In this document: one piece after another, positions 29,319 through 39,118 of the stretch
Layout of the letters: each line of letters opens with the position of its first letter
Position numbering within the stretch: the first letter of the stretch is position 1
DNA from: Chromobacterium violaceum ATCC 12472
GTDB taxonomy: Bacteria; Pseudomonadota; Gammaproteobacteria; Burkholderiales; Chromobacteriaceae
Direction of reading: 5' to 3'
NCBI RefSeq assembly: GCF_000007705.1
Contig: NC_005085.1
Location: 2,055,752 to 2,119,751, forward strand
Length of the DNA stretch: 64,000 nucleotides
Program-made: the position numbers and the translations under genes
Notes under the pieces: generated by a model
What the model saw: the letters and a program-made list of their open reading frames with translations, nothing else
Databases searched by the model: none
What the model was told of the DNA's origin: nothing

Positions 29319-29330
29319 GAGGGGATGATG

Positions 29331-32300
29331 ATGAAAAAAACAAAATTCGATTTGTCCGTGACCGGCCGGGTGGCCGCCGCCTTGACGCTGGCCTTCGTGC
29401 TGGCCGACAACGGCATGGCCGCAGGCATCGTGGCGGGCGGCGCCAACCAGCCGCAAGTGAGCACCGCCGCCAACGGCGCGCAGGTGGTCAACATCGTTGC
29501 GCCGACCGCGGCCGGCGTATCGCATAACCAGTATCAGGACTTCAACGTCAACCAGCCGGGCGCGGTGTTCAACAACTCGCTGCAGGGCGGCGCGTCCCAG
29601 TTGGCCGGCCAGCTCGCCGGCAACGCGATGCTGGGCGGCAACCAGGCCAGCGTGATTCTGAACGAGGTGGTCAGCCGCAACCCGTCGCTGCTGCTGGGCA
29701 AGCAGGAAGTGTTCGGCAAGGCCGCCGACTACGTGCTGGCCAACCCCAATGGCATCACTTGCAACGGCTGCGGCTTCATCAACATCCCCCGCGCCTCGCT
29801 GCTGGTCGGCACCGCCAATCTGCAGAACGGCGCCATCGCCTCGCTGCAGGCGGCGAACAACGGCAACGCGCTCAGCATCGCCGGCTCCGGCGCGTCCAGC
29901 GTCAGCGTGCTGGACCTGATCGCGCCGCGTCTGGACATCCGCGGCAATGTCGCCGCAACCGACGCCATCCGCGTCCGCGCCGGCTTCAACACCGTCGATT
30001 ACGCCAGCGGCCAGGTGATCGCCACCGCGCCGACGCCGGACGGCGTGGGCAGGCTGGACAGCTATTTCCTGGGCGCGATGCAGGCGGGCCGGATCAACAT
30101 CGTCAGCACCGCCGCGGGCGCGGGCGTCAATGTCGGCGGCAACCTCGCCGGCGGGGACGAGCTGACCGTCAACGCCGCGGGCGCGCTGGCGGTGCAGGCT
30201 GCGCAGCTGAAGGGCAGGCAACTGGCGCTGAGCGGCGCCAGCGTGGATATTTCCGGCCGGGTGGACAGCGAAACCGGCAAGGACAGCAAGCACGACGAAA
30301 GCTGGTTCATCTGGAAGACCGGCGAGAGCAACAGCGTGTCCAGCAAGACCGACGCCAGCGTCAAGCGCGCGTCGCTGCAGGGCGACAGCGTCACGGTCAG
30401 CGCCGCGGGCGGCGCCCACGTCGGCGCGGCCGACATCCAGGGCCAGGACGTGAAGCTGTCCGGCGCCAGCGTCAGCCTGGACGGCCAGCTGGCGGAAAGC
30501 AGCGCCCAGAGCAGCGACCACGCCTGGAAGAACTCCTGGGCCTTCAACCAGGACAAGAGCAGCACCACCCAGCAGCAGTCGACGGCCCGGATCAAGGCCG
30601 GCCATGACGCGGAAATCTCCGCTGCCGGCACGGACATCGCCATCGCCGGCGCCAGCGTGCAGGCCGGCAACAACGTGAAGCTGTCGGCCGCGGGCGGCGT
30701 CAAGCTGTCGGCGTTGACCGAAACCGACATCAGCCGCGACACAGGCAACCGCAAGAACGACGGCGCGGCGCTGGAAACCGGCAACTGGGACAATAGCAGC
30801 AGCCAGCAGCGGCTGGTGCAGGCCCAGGTGCGCGCCGGCAACGCGCTGGGCGTGACCGCCGGCGGCGACATCAACGCGCAGGCGGCCTCGCTGCAAGCCG
30901 GCGGCGACGCCATCCTGTCCTCGCAGGGCAAGACCGCGCTGGCTACGCAGACCAGCGCGAACAGCAGCAGCACGCAGAACGGCAAGACCTACTGGGGCGG
31001 CATCGGCGGCGGCGGCAACCAGAACAACAGCAGCAGCGCCACAGTCAACACCGGCAGCGCCGTCAACGCCGGCGGCAAGCTGTTCATCAACGGCGACGCC
31101 GGCATCGCGATCAACGGCAGCCAGGCCAAGGGCGCGCAGGGCGCTTACGCCAAGACCCAGTCCGGCGGCGTGGTCATCGACAGCGCGCTGGATCTGACCC
31201 AGACCCGCACCGACCAGCGCACCGGCACCGCGTTCAACATCACCAGCAGCGCCAGCAAGGGCAGCACCAGCAAGCAGGACGCGGTGGCTGCGTCGCTGAA
31301 GTCCGATGCCGAGCTGCAGCTGATCTCCGCCGGCGACGTGGCGGTGACCGGCAGCCTGGTCAAGGCGGCGCAGGCGCTGAACATCCAGGCGGTGGGCGAC
31401 ATCAAGGTGGCCAGCCAGGCGGTGGAATCCCACAGCCAGTCGAACGATACCCAGCTGGCGCTGCGCGGCGTCGGCGCCGAAACCGGCGACCAGCAATACC
31501 GCGGCGGCGTGCGCATCGAGCACACTTCCAGCAGCCAGCAACTGGACAAGACCGACCAGGCCGGCTCGCTGCTGTCCGGCGGCAGCGTCAAGCTGGCGGC
31601 GGGCAACGACCTGGCCGTCAGCGGCTCCAAGCTGGAAACCAGCGGCGGCGACGCCAGCCTGTCCGGCCAGAACGTCAGCCTGGCCGCGGCCCAGGCCACC
31701 CAGCGCAGCGACCAGTCCAGCACCGTCACGGGCGGCGGCCTGTATCTGACTGGCGGCCTGGACAAGACCGGCGCCGGGCTGGAATTCGGCCAGAGCAGCA
31801 GCCGCGCGGTCAGCGACGGCAGCGTCGCCCAGGTCAGCGAAGTGAAGGTCGGCGGCAAGCTCGACATCGTCGCCGGCAACGGCATGGGCCAGGTGCAGAA
31901 TCAGGGCACGCAGATCAAGGCGGGCGGCGCGGTGAGCGTGGTTGCCGGCGACGTCAGCAACCAGGCGGCATCCAACCAGCAGTCCGCCCAACAGAGCAGC
32001 AGCCACTGGGGCGCGGACGTCGGCGTCAACGTCGACTACAGCGGCATCACCCGTCCCATCGTCAACGCCGGCGGCAGCGTGGCCAAGGGCGACGTGGCCG
32101 GCGCGGCGGGGCAGGCCGGCCAGCTGGGCGCGGCCAACCTGGGCGTGGACATCAGCGCCACCGGCGGCAGCGCCCAGTCGCACAGCCAGAGCAGCGCCGC
32201 GGTGACCACCAGCATCGCCGGTTCGTCGGTCAGCGTGACCGCGGGCGGCGCGTTGAAGGACCAGGCTACCCAGTATCAGGCCACGCAAGGCCAGGTGAAC

Positions 32301-34217
32301 ATCCGCGCCGATAGCCACCAGATGACGGCGGCCGCCAATACCCAGAGCCAGAGCAGCCAGGCGAGCGAAGGCGGCGCCAGCGTGCGCGTCTACACCACCA
32401 CCGGCGAGGACGTGAACGTCAAGGGCAGCGGCCAGGGCAGCTACAGCAGCGGCCAGGGCGCGACCAGCGCCGCGGTCACCGGTTCCATTCAGTCCGCCGG
32501 CGGCGTCAACATCCAGGTGAACAACGACGCCAGCTACCAGGGCGCGGCGATCAACGGCGGCAGCGGCCAGGTCGGCATCCAGGCCGGCGGCAAGCTGGCG
32601 CTGACCCAGGCGAACAACACCAGCAGCAGCCAGCAGCATGATGTCAAGGTCGACGTCGGCCTGGGCATCAGCACCAGCCCGATCGACGGCGGCAGCAAGC
32701 TGGGCGGCAGCGGCAAGCTGGGCGTGGACAATGCGCAAAGCCAGAGCGCATCCAGCGCCGCGGCCAGCGGCAGCGTGCAGGCGGCCGGCGGCATCGCGCT
32801 GAGCTCGGGCAACGGCCTGACCGTGCAAGGCGGCAGCCTGCAGAGCGGCGGCGACATCAAGCTACAGTCCGACGGCAAGGTGAGCCTGCAGGCCGCAACC
32901 GGCAGCGACAGCAAGACCGGCAGCGGCTGGGGCTTCAACGTCAACGCCGGCGGCAGCCAGAGCGACGGCAAGGACACGGCCAGCAAGGGCTTCAACGTCG
33001 GCGGCGGCGCGCAGCTGTCCAGCCAGAGCGAGTCGTCGGCCAGCCAGGCTGGCGCGCAAGCGAAGGCTGGCGGCCAGCTGACCGTCAGCTCCGGCGCGAT
33101 GGGCAAGGACGCGATCTCGCTGCAGGGTAGCCAGCTGTCTGGCCAGGGCGTGAAGCTTGACGCAGAAAACGGCGGCATCAGCCTGCAATCGGCGCAGAAC
33201 GCCAGCCAGAAGAACGACTGGAGCGCCAATGCCAACCTGGGCGGCGGCAACACCGCCAAGACCGCGAAAGACAACGGCCAGCCCAAGGCCGAAGGCGTCA
33301 GCAACACCTACCAGGTCGGCGGCGGTTTCGGGGTCAAGGTCGATCAACAGGACAAGCTGGCCAACGCCAACGCCACGGTCAGCGGCGGCCAGGTCGACAT
33401 CCATGCCGACGGCCAACTGGCGTTGTCCGGCGCCAACATCAGCGGCGGCAAGGTGACGGGCAGCGTGGGCGGCAACGTGGCGGTGGAGAGCCGCCAGGAC
33501 CGCAACAACAGCACCACGGTGGACGTGGGATTGAAGGCGGACCGCTCCAACGGCAAGAACCCCAGCGTGGTGGATCAGGCGGCCGCGGCGGCGGGCCCGC
33601 TGTCCGGCCAGGTGAAGGAGAAGGCGACCGAGGCGGTGAACAAAGTGGCCGACAAGGTGGAGGAGAAGTACAACAGCCTGGCCTTCGCCAACGGCAAGGA
33701 CAGCACCAATCCGGTCAGCTTCAGCAAGGACGCGGACGGCGGCAGCGTGAAGCTGCCTGACCAGCCGACCAGCGGCGAAGCCAAGTCCGGCGTGGTCGAC
33801 GGCGCGCTGCGCAAGGGCGGCGAAACCCTGAAGGACAAGCTGCTCAACCCGCAGGACAAGGGCACCCAGGTGTCGGGCGTGATCGATGTCAGCGTCAAGA
33901 AGGATGACAGCGTCGGCGCCGTCAGCGCGATCCGCGGCGATGCCGGCGTGGATCTGTCCGTCGGCGGCAAGGTCCAGTTGAACGGCGGCCGGATTTCGTC
34001 CGGCGGGCAGGTGAATCTGGGCGACGCCAAAGTCGAGACCAGCAGCATCCAGACCAGCAGCTACACCGGCGCCGGCGGCGTCAAGCTGGACGGCACGCCG
34101 GCGGCCATCGTGCAGCAGGCGGTCAAGGATGTCACCTCAGGCAAGGCGCCGCTGATCCATGTCGAGCGCAGCAGCCAAACCCAGACGGTGGCTGGCGAAG
34201 TGCAATCCGGCAAGTGA
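29331..34217 (+). CDS. filamentous haemagglutinin-type TpsA adhesin
   Basis: Very large exported protein of about 1628 residues. A signal peptide ends near NGMAA. The TPS secretion domain follows, with LANPNGITCNGCGFINIPR and DLIAPRLDIRGNV, the motif set recognised by the partner transporter. The rest is a repetitive Gly/Ser/Asn/Gln-rich beta-helix with haemagglutinin repeats and many SGAS/SGQGV-like turns. The third ATG (29331) is chosen because GAGGGG ends 6 bases before it; the first (29325) is directly abutting that site. No VENN motif, toxin tail or immunity gene is visible. An adhesin or biofilm role is likely. Confidence 0.88.
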   Translation: MKKTKFDLSVTGRVAAALTLAFVLADNGMAAGIVAGGANQPQVSTAANGAQVVNIVAPTAAGVSHNQYQDFNVNQPGAVFNNSLQGGASQLAGQLAGNAMLGGNQASVILNEVVSRNPSLLLGKQEVFGKAADYVLANPNGITCNGCGFINIPRASLLVGTANLQNGAIASLQAANNGNALSIAGSGASSVSVLDLIAPRLDIRGNVAATDAIRVRAGFNTVDYASGQVIATAPTPDGVGRLDSYFLGAMQAGRINIVSTAAGAGVNVGGNLAGGDELTVNAAGALAVQAAQLKGRQLALSGASVDISGRVDSETGKDSKHDESWFIWKTGESNSVSSKTDASVKRASLQGDSVTVSAAGGAHVGAADIQGQDVKLSGASVSLDGQLAESSAQSSDHAWKNSWAFNQDKSSTTQQQSTARIKAGHDAEISAAGTDIAIAGASVQAGNNVKLSAAGGVKLSALTETDISRDTGNRKNDGAALETGNWDNSSSQQRLVQAQVRAGNALGVTAGGDINAQAASLQAGGDAILSSQGKTALATQTSANSSSTQNGKTYWGGIGGGGNQNNSSSATVNTGSAVNAGGKLFINGDAGIAINGSQAKGAQGAYAKTQSGGVVIDSALDLTQTRTDQRTGTAFNITSSASKGSTSKQDAVAASLKSDAELQLISAGDVAVTGSLVKAAQALNIQAVGDIKVASQAVESHSQSNDTQLALRGVGAETGDQQYRGGVRIEHTSSSQQLDKTDQAGSLLSGGSVKLAAGNDLAVSGSKLETSGGDASLSGQNVSLAAAQATQRSDQSSTVTGGGLYLTGGLDKTGAGLEFGQSSSRAVSDGSVAQVSEVKVGGKLDIVAGNGMGQVQNQGTQIKAGGAVSVVAGDVSNQAASNQQSAQQSSSHWGADVGVNVDYSGITRPIVNAGGSVAKGDVAGAAGQAGQLGAANLGVDISATGGSAQSHSQSSAAVTTSIAGSSVSVTAGGALKDQATQYQATQGQVNIRADSHQMTAAANTQSQSSQASEGGASVRVYTTTGEDVNVKGSGQGSYSSGQGATSAAVTGSIQSAGGVNIQVNNDASYQGAAINGGSGQVGIQAGGKLALTQANNTSSSQQHDVKVDVGLGISTSPIDGGSKLGGSGKLGVDNAQSQSASSAAASGSVQAAGGIALSSGNGLTVQGGSLQSGGDIKLQSDGKVSLQAATGSDSKTGSGWGFNVNAGGSQSDGKDTASKGFNVGGGAQLSSQSESSASQAGAQAKAGGQLTVSSGAMGKDAISLQGSQLSGQGVKLDAENGGISLQSAQNASQKNDWSANANLGGGNTAKTAKDNGQPKAEGVSNTYQVGGGFGVKVDQQDKLANANATVSGGQVDIHADGQLALSGANISGGKVTGSVGGNVAVESRQDRNNSTTVDVGLKADRSNGKNPSVVDQAAAAAGPLSGQVKEKATEAVNKVADKVEEKYNSLAFANGKDSTNPVSFSKDADGGSVKLPDQPTSGEAKSGVVDGALRKGGETLKDKLLNPQDKGTQVSGVIDVSVKKDDSVGAVSAIRGDAGVDLSVGGKVQLNGGRISSGGQVNLGDAKVETSSIQTSSYTGAGGVKLDGTPAAIVQQAVKDVTSGKAPLIHVERSSQTQTVAGEVQSGK

Positions 34218-35677: not shown

Positions 35678-36577
35678 ATGAAAACCACGCTGGAACAGTG
35701 GCAGGTGCTGCGCGCGATCGTGGAAGAGGGCGGCTTTGCCCAGGCCGCGGAGACGCTGCATCGCAGCCAGTCCGCGGTCAGCTACGCGGTGGCCAGACTG
35801 CAGGAGCAGCTGGGCGTGGCCTTGCTGCGCCAGGAGGGGCGGCGGATGCGGTTGACCGTCGAAGGCGAGGTATTGCTGCGCGAGGCTGGCGAACTGCTGC
35901 GTCAGGCCGACAGCTTGGAGCGGCGCGCGGGCAGTCTGCGACGGGGCTGGGAGCCGGAGCTCAAGGTGGCGATGGACAGCCTGCTGCCTGTCGAGGTGGT
36001 GCTGGCCGCCTGCGGCGATTTTGCCGGCCACTGTCGCGAGACGCGGCTGCGACTGCACGAGGTGGTGATGTCAGGCGCCGACGACGCCTTATACCAGGGC
36101 GATGCCGCATTGGCGGTGGCGGGACGGGTGCCGCAAGGGTTCCTGGGCGATTGGCTGCTGGATGCGGAATTCATCGCCTGCGCCGCGCCGGGCCACCGCC
36201 TGCACGCGCTGGGCGGCGAGCTGGACGGCGAAAAGCTGCGCGGCGAGGTGCAGGTGGTGCTGCGGGATACCGGCATCCGCCAGCCGCGCGACGAAGGCTG
36301 GTTGGGCGCGCGCCAGCGCTGGACGGTGTCGCAGCCGGAAACCGGCATCGCGATGGTGGAGGCGGGGCTGGCCTTCGGCTGGCTGGCGCGCCACCGCATC
36401 CGGCGGCAGCTGGCCGAGGGCAGCCTGAAGCCCTTGCCGCTGAAAAGCGGGGCGGTGCGCAAGGCGTCGTTGTACCTGGTGCTGGCGGAACCGTCGTCCG
36501 CCGGACCCGCCTGCCTGTATCTGGCGGACGCCTTGAGGCGGGCGGCCGCCGACTGGCGCAGCGGCTGCGCTCAGTGA
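35678..36577 (+). CDS. LysR-family transcription regulator
   Basis: A 299-residue regulator. The winged helix-turn-helix (AQAAETLHRSQSAVSYAVAR, about residues 20-45) is followed by a type-2 periplasmic-binding-protein-like effector domain. The 105-base gap to the divergent pirin gene should contain the operator. An effector ligand cannot be guessed from sequence. The 3' end overlaps the convergent GntR-family gene by 7 bases. Confidence 0.92.
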   Translation: MKTTLEQWQVLRAIVEEGGFAQAAETLHRSQSAVSYAVARLQEQLGVALLRQEGRRMRLTVEGEVLLREAGELLRQADSLERRAGSLRRGWEPELKVAMDSLLPVEVVLAACGDFAGHCRETRLRLHEVVMSGADDALYQGDAALAVAGRVPQGFLGDWLLDAEFIACAAPGHRLHALGGELDGEKLRGEVQVVLRDTGIRQPRDEGWLGARQRWTVSQPETGIAMVEAGLAFGWLARHRIRRQLAEGSLKPLPLKSGAVRKASLYLVLAEPSSAGPACLYLADALRRAAADWRSGCAQ

Positions 36578-37245
36578 TTGGCCTGCTGGCCCTTCAGGTA
36601 GCTTTCCAGCGCGTGGCCGGCCGACAGGATGTGGAAGCGCAGGAATTCCGCCGCTTCGTCCGCCTTGCCCTGGCGGCACAGCTCCAGCAGCCGGGTGTGC
36701 TCCTCGTGGGCGCGCTCCATGGTGCGGGTGAACAGGATCTGCATCCGGGTGTAGCGGTCGGTCTTGTTGTGCAGCTGCTCGATCAGCGCCAGCGTGTTTG
36801 GCCGGCGGGCGGCGCGGTACAGCGCCAGGTGGAAGCGGGAGTTGATCTCGCCCCAGTGGCGCACGTCGTTGTTGTTGAGCGCGACCTCGAATTCCCGCAG
36901 CGTCTGCTGGGCGGCTTCGTGGTCGGCCGAGCTCTGACAGGGAATGGCCGCCTTCAGCAGCGAGCATTCCAGCATCGCCCGCACTTCCAGCAATTCCAGG
37001 ATGTCTTCCAGCGACAGCTTGGACACCAGGGCGCCCTTGTGGTCGATGATCTGGATCAGGCCCTCGGCTTCCAGCTGCCGCAGCGCTTCCCGCACTGGCA
37101 CCCGGCTGACGCCGTATTCATTGGACAGCGCCTCTTGGCGCAGTTGTTGGCCGTCGGCGAACTCGCCGGACAGGATGCGACGGCGCAGGGACTCGGTGAC
37201 GGCACTGGTAAGCGTCTGGCGCTTGATCGGCTGCAGGGTGGTCAT
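36571..37245 (-). CDS. GntR-family regulator, FadR/FCD subfamily
   Basis: A 224-residue regulator with an N-terminal winged helix (ALSNEYGVSRVPVREALRQ, about residues 35-70) and a C-terminal all-helical FCD ligand domain that typically binds an acid through a metal. The reading frame is intact. An IS3-family element is inserted only 15 bases upstream of its ATG, separating it from its probable native promoter and operator at 38480-38530 (separate entries). It may therefore be silent or driven by IS read-through. No ribosome site is visible before the ATG. Confidence 0.92.
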   Translation of the reverse strand: MTTLQPIKRQTLTSAVTESLRRRILSGEFADGQQLRQEALSNEYGVSRVPVREALRQLEAEGLIQIIDHKGALVSKLSLEDILELLEVRAMLECSLLKAAIPCQSSADHEAAQQTLREFEVALNNNDVRHWGEINSRFHLALYRAARRPNTLALIEQLHNKTDRYTRMQILFTRTMERAHEEHTRLLELCRQGKADEAAEFLRFHILSAGHALESYLKGQQANH

Positions 37246-37255
37246 GGTGGATGCG

Positions 37256-37260
37256 ACGTC
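37256..37260. repeat. target-site duplication, left copy
   Basis: ACGTC directly left of the IS3 element; identical to 38452-38456. Confidence 0.75.
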
Positions 37261-37269
37261 CCCCCACTT

Positions 37270-38133
37270 TCAGTAGCAGAGAGCTTTAGAGTCCGGGCTT
37301 AATTGACCTGATTTCTCTGCAAGTGATTCGGCATAGGCAGCTGGCGTCAAACCACCCAGTGCTTTCTTGGGCCTTTCGTTGTTGTATTCCCTACGCCAGG
37401 CTTCGATGACGACCTGGGCATGGCGCAGGCTGGTGAACCAGTGTTCGTTCAGGCACTCATCCCGGAAGCGCCCGTTAAATGATTCGATGTAAGCGTTCTG
37501 ATTCGGCTTGCCTGGCTCGATCAGAAAGAGCTGCACCCCACGAGCGTGTGCCCAGGTCAACATCGCTCGGCTGCAGAATTCCTTGCCGTTATCGGTCCGG
37601 ATGGCTTTGGGCAAGCCACGTGTCTGCGCCAGCTGGTCGAGGACGCGGGTCAGATGCAGACCTCCCATCGCACGTTCCGGAACAATGGCGACTGCCTCAT
37701 GCGTGGCATCATCGACTACCGTCAGATTTTTGATGACCCGCCCCTCTGCCGTTCGGTCGAACACAAAGTCCATCGACCAGACCTGATTGGCGGCCAAAGG
37801 ACGGGCCAGTGGGTGACGGTCGGCCACAGGGATTTTCTTGCGCTTGCGCCGGCGAATTTGCAGACCGGCCTCAGCATAGAGCCGATCCACCCGCTTGTGA
37901 TTGACCACCATGCCGCTCTGCCGCAGTTTCAAATAGATCATGCCGGCGCCGTAGCGTCGGTGCCGTTGCGCAAGCGCGATGATCTTCGCTTTCAAGACGG
38001 CATTGCGATCGGTGGCGGGCTGATAGCGGAATGAACTGGGACTCATGCCGGCCAGGCGCAGCGATTTGCGCTCGCTGAGCCCTTTGCCCACCAGATGGCG
38101 CACCAGCTCCCGCCGTGACGGTGCGCTCACCAC
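37270..38133 (-). CDS. IS3 transposase, OrfB (DDE integrase domain)
   Basis: C-terminal half of the IS3 transposase, about 288 residues from the frameshift site. After a HTH_21-type segment, the rve integrase core shows the three acidic residues: Asp in VWSMDFVFD, Asp in [10 protein letters not shown], and Glu in [12 protein letters not shown]. It is normally made as an OrfAB fusion by -1 frameshifting at the A-AAA-AAG site 38133-38139; a GTG at 38133 could give OrfB alone. The frame is complete, so the element may be active. Confidence 0.9.
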
Positions 38134-38390
38134 TTTTTTCTCAGGGCTTCTTTGGCAATCTCGTTCTCGAGCATGGTCTCGGCCAAGAGTTTTTTCAGGC
38201 GCGCATTCTCTGTCTCCAGCTCCTTGAGACGCTTGGCCTCCGAGACATTCATTCCGCCGAATTTGTTGCGCCAGAGGTAATAGCTGGCTTCCGAGAAGGC
38301 GTGCTTGCGGCACAGTTCGGCAATGGGCATTCCCGCGTCGGCTTCGCGCAGGAAGCCGATGATCTGTTCTTCGGTGAATCGTTTCTTCAT
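38127..38390 (-). CDS. IS3 transposase, OrfA (helix-turn-helix)
   Basis: An 87-residue DNA-binding protein starting at ATG 38390, with GGAG upstream; a TTG two codons earlier is less likely. The HTH is [20 protein letters not shown], followed by a leucine-zipper-like helix ([17 protein letters not shown]). Near its 3' end the heptamer A-AAA-AAG (38139-38133) allows -1 slippage into orfB before the TGA stop at 38127-38129. It recognises the element's ends and represses its promoter in known IS3 members. Confidence 0.88.
38133..38139 (-). other. programmed -1 frameshift site
   Basis: On the minus strand, the slippery heptamer A-AAA-AAG lies in frame with orfA, followed by TGG TGA. Slippage enters orfB. 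Confidence 0.75.
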
Positions 38391-38451
38391 ATCCAATCTC
38401 CGTGTGTGGTTGATTGGACTCTAAAGTCACGTGCTACTCAATACCGGGGGG

Positions 38452-38456
38452 ACGTC
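38452..38456. repeat. target-site duplication, right copy
   Basis: ACGTC directly right of the IS3 element; identical to 37256-37260. Confidence 0.75.
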
Positions 38457-38479
38457 GGATGGGCTTATCTGTCAGTCAA

Positions 38480-38530
38480 TCGGATACATGCAAATGTATT
38501 CGATTATACGGAGCTTCACTGTACTGGCAA
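38480..38530 (-). promoter_or_regulatory. probable native promoter and operator of the GntR gene
   Basis: On the minus strand, TTGCCA (38525-38530), 16 bp, then a perfect TATAAT (38503-38508), followed by a palindrome TCGGATACAT-GCAA-ATGTATTCGA (38480-38503) that spans the likely transcription start. Such palindromes suit FadR-type regulators. Removing the IS element would place this about 235 bases before the GntR start. It now reads into the IS3 transposase genes. Confidence 0.65.
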
Positions 38531-38582
38531 GCGGCAAAACTGAACATTTTTGTCGCGATTTTATAAGAATGGGGAAGGGGGA

Positions 38583-38613
38583 AAAATAAAGCCCGACGCG
38601 AGGTCGGGCTTTT
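38583..38613 (-). terminator. intrinsic terminator of the tRNA operon
   Basis: On the minus strand, AAAGCCCGAC / GTCGGGCTTT stem followed by ATTTTTCC. It follows the last tRNA-His gene. Confidence 0.85.
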
Positions 38614-38620
38614 CTGTTTC

Positions 38621-38697
38621 TGGGGTGGATGATGGGACTCGAACCCACGACAACCGGAATCACAATCCGGGACTCTACCAACTGAGCTACATCCACC
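38621..38697 (-). tRNA. tRNA-His (anticodon GTG), copy 3 in transcription order
   Basis: 77 bases including the encoded CCA and the extra G-1 that pairs with C73, typical of bacterial tRNA-His. The anticodon loop reads TTGTGAT, and the T-arm GTGGGTTCGAGTCCCAT and the D-arm AGCTCAGTTGGTAGAG are standard. Identical in sequence to the two neighbouring copies. Confidence 0.97.
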
Positions 38698-38722
38698 GCT
38701 GATGACGCGATGGTCGAAACCT

Positions 38723-38799
38723 TGGGGTGGATGATGGGACTCGAACCCACGACAACCGGAATCACAATCCGGGACTCTACCAACTGAGCTACATCCACC
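38723..38799 (-). tRNA. tRNA-His (anticodon GTG), copy 2 in transcription order
   Basis: Same 77-base gene as at 38621, with no differences seen. The spacer to copy 3 is 25 bases and the spacer to copy 1 is 44 bases. Confidence 0.97.
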
Positions 38800-38843
38800 G
38801 TCGAAACAGTGAGACCGCGGCGGCGCCGCAATCATTCAAATTG

Positions 38844-38920
38844 TGGGGTGGATGATGGGACTCGAACCCACGACAACCGGAATCACAATCCGGGACTCTA
38901 CCAACTGAGCTACATCCACC
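38844..38920 (-). tRNA. tRNA-His (anticodon GTG), copy 1 in transcription order
   Basis: Same 77-base gene as the other two copies, with CCA encoded. It lies 26 bases downstream (minus strand) of the tRNA-Arg gene. Confidence 0.97.
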
Positions 38921-38946: not shown

Positions 38947-39023
38947 TGGCGCGCCCGACAGGAATCGAACCTGTAACCCCCGGCTTAGAAGGCCGGTGCT
39001 CTATCCGGTTGAGCTACGGGCGC
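38947..39023 (-). tRNA. tRNA-Arg (anticodon TCT)
   Basis: A 77-base gene with acceptor GCGCCCG / CGGGCGC, anticodon loop CTTCTAA, T-arm containing GGTTCGATTCC and an encoded CCA end. The TCT anticodon reads AGA and AGG codons, rare in this high-GC genome. Confidence 0.96.
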
Positions 39024-39041
39024 TCTATCGGGCATTGTGTC

Positions 39042-39118
39042 TGGTCGGGGCGGCGGGATTCGAACTCGCGACCCCCTGATCCCAAATCAGGTGCGCTACC
39101 AGGCTGCGCTACGCCCCG
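39042..39118 (-). tRNA. tRNA-Pro (anticodon TGG)
   Basis: A 77-base gene with acceptor CGGGGCG / CGCCCCG, anticodon loop TTTGGGA (anticodon TGG), T-arm GAGTTCGAATC and encoded CCA. It is the first gene of the tRNA operon, directly after the promoter. Confidence 0.96.

Follow-up and report, generated by a model that had tools for sequence, protein, structure and literature searches.

Displacement of a conserved promoter from a GntR/FCD regulator gene by an IS3-family element in Chromobacterium violaceum

Introduction

Two described systems come closest to the arrangement considered here. In Escherichia coli BW25113, transposition of an IS5 copy lying in nmpC was found by experiment to depend on a host promoter (PMC11677980), and in Paracoccus the IS407-group elements ISPam3 and ISPfe1 were shown experimentally to have outward promoters in their terminal parts (PMC3281130). 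The locus of C. violaceum ATCC 12472 that we describe resembles the first of these in having an insertion sequence (IS) oriented with the host gene and downstream of that gene's promoter; the E. coli element, however, is of another family and lies within the gene, and its promoter dependence was established experimentally, whereas our argument is drawn from sequence. With ISPam3 and ISPfe1 it shares the IS family and an insertion just upstream of a gene, but the outward promoters proven there have no counterpart recognisable by a simple scan in the element here. A search of titles and the opening parts of abstracts concerning C. violaceum GntR proteins, IS3 elements, transposases or transcriptomes, and autoregulation by GntR regulators with an FCD domain, yielded no description of this locus. 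The IS involved is an ordinary one, and the locus is a clear natural case of events already known in kind.

All coordinates are those of the window, the whole stretch of 64,000 nucleotides of the C. violaceum chromosome that was analysed.

The regulator and its conservation in the family

The gene, gntR (36571..37245, minus strand), encodes an intact GntR/FCD-family transcriptional regulator of 224 amino acids, and the ORF list agrees with an initial annotation of the window, made from the letters alone, in placing its ATG start at 37245. Pfam profiles for both domains scored above their cut-offs (GntR, 69.2 bits; FCD, 80.1 bits), with the GntR winged helix-turn-helix at the N-terminus and the FCD domain at the C-terminus, as is proper to the GntR/FCD family. 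The gene had also been likened to the FadR type, a description that fits no more than loosely: the cut-offs of the two FadR equivalog models are 189 and 249.2 bits, and the protein scored 24.1 and 23.7. The highest NCBIfam scores were for phnR_burk (98.9 bits) and CsiR (71.4 bits), and the protein fell below the cut-off in all 19 models listed; it is thus like PhnR-type and CsiR regulators in its GntR plus FCD architecture, and unlike them in lying below the NCBIfam cut-offs. The closest solved structure by sequence, 3c7j, is of a GntR-family regulator without a stated function. The conserved neighbours of gntR gave nothing explanatory about function in the three genomes scanned (L131, L135 and L144), in all of which folD lies upstream of it.

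The protein is widespread. A match at E <= 1e-55 was present in 60 of the 61 family genomes, none being found at that threshold in the remaining one (G027, a genome that is 61% complete). In 58 genomes the homologue was at least 76% identical, only a 60-64% match being present in G014 and G046; when attention is confined to the 57 family genomes of at least 90% completeness and at most 5% contamination, 56 have a close (at least 76% identical) homologue. Between the C. violaceum gene and those of three near relatives there are 27-32 synonymous differences, and a further 4-6 nucleotide differences fall in codons that change the amino acid, the corresponding figures among the three relatives themselves being 17-42 and 1-4; K147R is the sole residue unique to the C. 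violaceum genome in this comparison. The regulator protein therefore stays intact and conserved, with no clear decay, and the insertion described below may simply be recent.

Elsewhere in the window (29325-34217, plus strand) is an open frame of 1630 amino acids, the start of which, judged by eye, resembles a filamentous-haemagglutinin-type secreted protein.

The element and its point of insertion

Upstream of gntR, and in the same orientation, lies a complete IS3-family element of 1204 bp (37254..38457, minus strand), recognised by comparison of copies and by alignment of homologues. The genome, a single contig of 4,751,080 bases, contains five full-length copies with 100% identity, all of 1204 bp and with identical ends (CGACGTCCCCCC... 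and ...GGGGGGACGTCG), and homologues from other genera align along element positions 1-1204. The first frame, orfA (38127..38396, minus strand; HTH_Tnp_1, 80.6 bits), has a likely ATG start at 38390, and the motif AAAAAAG just ahead of its stop, both read from the letters; it overlaps the open frame that holds orfB (37270..38430, minus strand), which contains an integrase core (rve_3, 105.7 bits) and scores 233 bits with the NF033516 transpos_IS3 model (cut-off 160). Overlapping frames with such a motif are characteristic of the IS3 family, and orfB would be expected to be reached from orfA through a -1 frameshift. Among the best 12 of 3344 plasmid records, one annotated as ISCte3 was 75.7% identical over all 1204 bases, and those annotated as IS1404 were 70.5-70.9% identical, again over all 1204 bases. 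We take both ISCte3 and IS1404 to be members of the IS407 group. Full-length alignment, the orfA plus orfB frames and a 4-bp target duplication are common to them and to the element here, which by its identity is nevertheless a different one; on these comparisons it is classed as an IS1404/ISCte3-like member of the IS3 family. Elsewhere in the genome is a remnant (L006:1441-1600) in which two sequences resembling the IS ends stand near each other; it might have arisen from this element as a non-autonomous derivative.

The initial annotation had taken ACGTC, present at both edges, as a duplication, and had placed the element 15 bases upstream of gntR. Neither point can be upheld. Every one of the genome's five full-length copies has CGACGTC/GACGTCG at its ends, and homologues align over the 1204 bases, so ACGTC belongs to the element and is ruled out as a target duplication. 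Comparison of the flanks reveals instead a duplicated GATG, at 37250..37253 on the gntR side and 38458..38461 on the promoter side. Three of the five copies have matching 4-bp flanks; the unmatched flanks of the other two (L002 and L003) suggest recombination or an adjacent deletion after insertion. Among relatives' copies of which both ends could be located by exact motif, the flanks match in L161/L173, L164 and L165, and do not match in L162 and L166. A duplication of 4 bp agrees with membership of the IS407 group, for four elements of which PMC3281130 lists values of 4, 4, 4 and 2, taken here as duplication length.

The empty site survives in relatives: in C. piscinae DSM 23278 (G009; L008/L113) and C. 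vaccinii MWU205 (G018; L010/L114) the sequence ...GACAGATAAGCCCATCCACC-ATG reproduces the C. violaceum flanks letter for letter, if the duplicated CATC is counted once, and in G008 the site has two base differences. The insertion point is therefore 8 bp before the gntR ATG, and these 8 bp (37246..37253, minus strand, including one copy of the duplication) are what relatives' sequences identify as the original leader beside the start codon.

The promoter beyond the element

On the far side of the element, and now facing it, is the sequence TTGCCA-16-TATAAT (38530-38503, minus strand), which has 11 of 12 consensus matches and is the lone promoter-like site on both strands of 37150-38650. Since shuffled sequence gave a mean of 0.7 such sites, the credibility of this promoter rests on its conservation rather than on the scan. 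After identical sequences had been collapsed, and with one genome taken per species, 57 distinct upstream sequences were available, C. violaceum included. A -10 box (one mismatch allowed) occurs at -36 to -70 in 54 of the 56 others, and the two exceptions (L142 and L145) have an altered -10 but keep the exact palindrome discussed below, at -44; from this it follows that no IS intervenes in any of the 56, and that an element between promoter and gntR is found only in the C. violaceum genome. This phylogenetic footprint identifies the promoter beyond the IS as the ancestral gntR promoter. Directly upstream of it are three tandem tRNA-His (gtg) genes (38621-38919, minus strand), adjoined by genes for tRNA-Arg and tRNA-Pro (38947-39118).

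With relatives having the promoter 36-70 nucleotides from the ATG, and with two exact empty sites, it is firmly established by sequence comparison that the element displaced a conserved promoter-palindrome unit from gntR by 1.2 kb. The central proposal of the initial annotation, that an IS splits gntR from its own promoter and a palindrome, is in this respect borne out, as are the two sequences that it placed beyond the element.

The palindrome as a candidate operator

The palindrome, TCGGATACAT-GCAA-ATGTATTCGA (38480..38503), was delimited from the letters, a core search and relatives' sequences, and lies over the expected transcription start, as a candidate operator might. It is present with at most two mismatches in 41 of the 56 other upstream sequences and with three mismatches in five; in none of 11,400 mononucleotide-shuffled upstream regions was it present at two or fewer, so its conservation exceeds chance. 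In the remaining ten it is absent (6-7 mismatches), yet all ten (L141, L144, L146, L147, L148, L149, L152, L153, L087 and L093) keep the -10 box.

We think it rather probable that the regulator binds this palindrome, and self-regulation through it is plausible: it straddles the expected start, it is conserved, and the dyad is retained despite a change of spacer, all of which points that way. The spacer change is in Crenobacter luteus (L092/L151), in which GAATACA-N6-TGTATCC is kept, as would be expected for a dimeric protein. Against this must be set the ten sequences without the palindrome, given that the DNA-binding domain hardly changes: it is almost unchanged in the eight of them that were compared (all but L087 and L093), and no residue of the protein separates 38 palindrome-bearing sequences from the eight that lack the palindrome (50 of the 56 rows compared). 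These facts, together with the failure to find a second copy at two or fewer mismatches in the C. violaceum genome, would suit a different interpretation, in which the palindrome is the site of another protein, or forms a hairpin in the 5' leader. We consider this possible but on the unlikely side; the dyad of Crenobacter speaks against it, and the hairpin version has the further difficulty that in Aquitalea one arm is changed without compensation in the other. In any case, the ten sequences without the palindrome provide natural variation that would help to locate the true motif of the regulator.

Does the palindrome mark a wider regulon? At exactly three mismatches, the C. violaceum genome has seven sites in addition to that at gntR (reversed-pattern control, 0), and a search of the genus (19 genomes) gave 62 sites with two or fewer mismatches, 13 at gntR and 49 elsewhere (control, 7). 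Palindrome-like sites are thus in excess over the control (7 vs 0, and 49 vs 7), many of the 49 being the same sequence recurring across several species (L111 and L112 are among the sites). Among the minority of sites that were opened there was no convincing second target. That of L167-L169 is within a long open frame. In G013 (exact) and G005 (one mismatch) the palindrome adjoins another gene, by eye that of a TetR-type regulator. A site before topA (recognised by eye from its translation) occurs in C. violaceum and G011, but the majority of the other species compared do not keep the dyad there. Ten further sites (four of the three-mismatch sites of C. violaceum and six from relatives, including those of G013 and G005) each lie inside a frame of 732-2214 nucleotides, but this discriminates poorly, since DNA as G+C-rich as this has many long antisense frames. 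In view of the lack of a second C. violaceum site at two or fewer mismatches, it may well be that the recognition domain, itself conserved, acts at further targets that have a different motif.

How might gntR now be expressed?

With its leader interrupted by a 1204-bp element 8 bp before the ATG, and 4 bp of target duplicated, gntR is likely to be mis-expressed in this strain. We put at roughly two in three the chance that it is reached by read-through from the ancestral promoter, which, as originally noted, points into the transposase genes. Most likely a single orfA-orfB-gntR transcript would be made, with gntR as the distal cistron, its level altered and probably lower, and still subject to whatever control acts at the palindrome. 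Such read-through is the simplest route because the element and gntR have the same orientation, the stop of the orfB frame is only 24 nucleotides ahead of the gntR ATG, and neither a terminator-like site nor an outward promoter is recognisable. A simple scan found no minus-strand terminator-like site within the element, the sole one on that strand (38612-38588) being upstream of it. Likewise, the promoter scan of both strands of 37150-38650 detected no promoter-like site inside the element, nor any within 37245-37260, where a promoter would, according to the initial annotation, have told against displacement. Rho-dependent termination inside the element may count against read-through, and so, by analogy, could a promoter that a simple scan would miss.

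Such a promoter is the basis of a view that we regard as unlikely, namely that the gntR-side end of the IS drives the gene outward, so that its promoter has been replaced rather than relayed and gntR is freed from control at the palindrome. ISPam3 and ISPfe1 activate downstream genes from terminal outward promoters (PMC3281130), and there is a -35-like hexamer, TTGACG, at 37350; it has no convincing -10 partner, however, and 147 of 200 shuffled sequences matched or exceeded the best promoter-like score at this end (5.2). With the same hexamer weights, which are approximate E. coli values, the ancestral promoter scores 14.17, against at most 6.65 anywhere on the minus strand of the element.

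Predicted RNA structure at the gntR start qualifies the read-through model. When the terminal repeats are folded as two isolated ends, they are predicted to pair with -61.5 kcal/mol, the base of the stem being 8 nucleotides before the gntR AUG, so that in the read-through RNA this stem could block gntR translation, which may then depend on ribosomes finishing orfB. The promoter having been moved by 1204 bp, and the predicted stem lying beside the AUG, it is conceivable, though we doubt it, that gntR is effectively silenced, either because few transcripts cross the IS or because the pairing of the repeats blocks initiation, making the strain a natural knock-down. The 4-6 differences in amino-acid-changing codons, slightly more than the 1-4 among relatives, would agree with this. 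On the other hand, the coding sequence is intact with its one unique residue (which a recent insertion would explain as well), and orfB translation, ending so close upstream, could melt the stem. Read-through with reduced output is the reading that we prefer.

Could the host promoter serve the element?

The initial annotation went on to suggest that the element may have captured a repressor-controlled promoter: GntR released by its ligand would then raise transposase, and transposition would be tied to a host signal. This is topologically possible, the promoter and the element sharing a direction, and it has a precedent in E. coli, where the IS5 copy in nmpC relies on the nmpC promoter that lies upstream of it (PMC11677980), but it is speculative and seems to us improbable. 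The palindrome is only a putative GntR site, and the ribosome-binding site and start of orfA are predicted to be mostly paired in a hairpin (mean unpaired probability 0.16) in transcripts from the host promoter and from an internal start alike; transcription from the host promoter would therefore not necessarily yield more transposase. Similarly improbable would be a single negatively autoregulated operon, in which GntR, encoded by the last cistron, represses the promoter that feeds both transposase and gntR, and the inducing signal also releases transposition of this copy.

Implications

At this locus a widely conserved regulator has, in nature, been parted from its promoter. The strain in which this has occurred is a widely used type strain and, if gntR expression is altered, the phenotypes of that strain may not represent the genus. 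Whether an IS can come under the control of a host repressor could also be tested simply at this locus.
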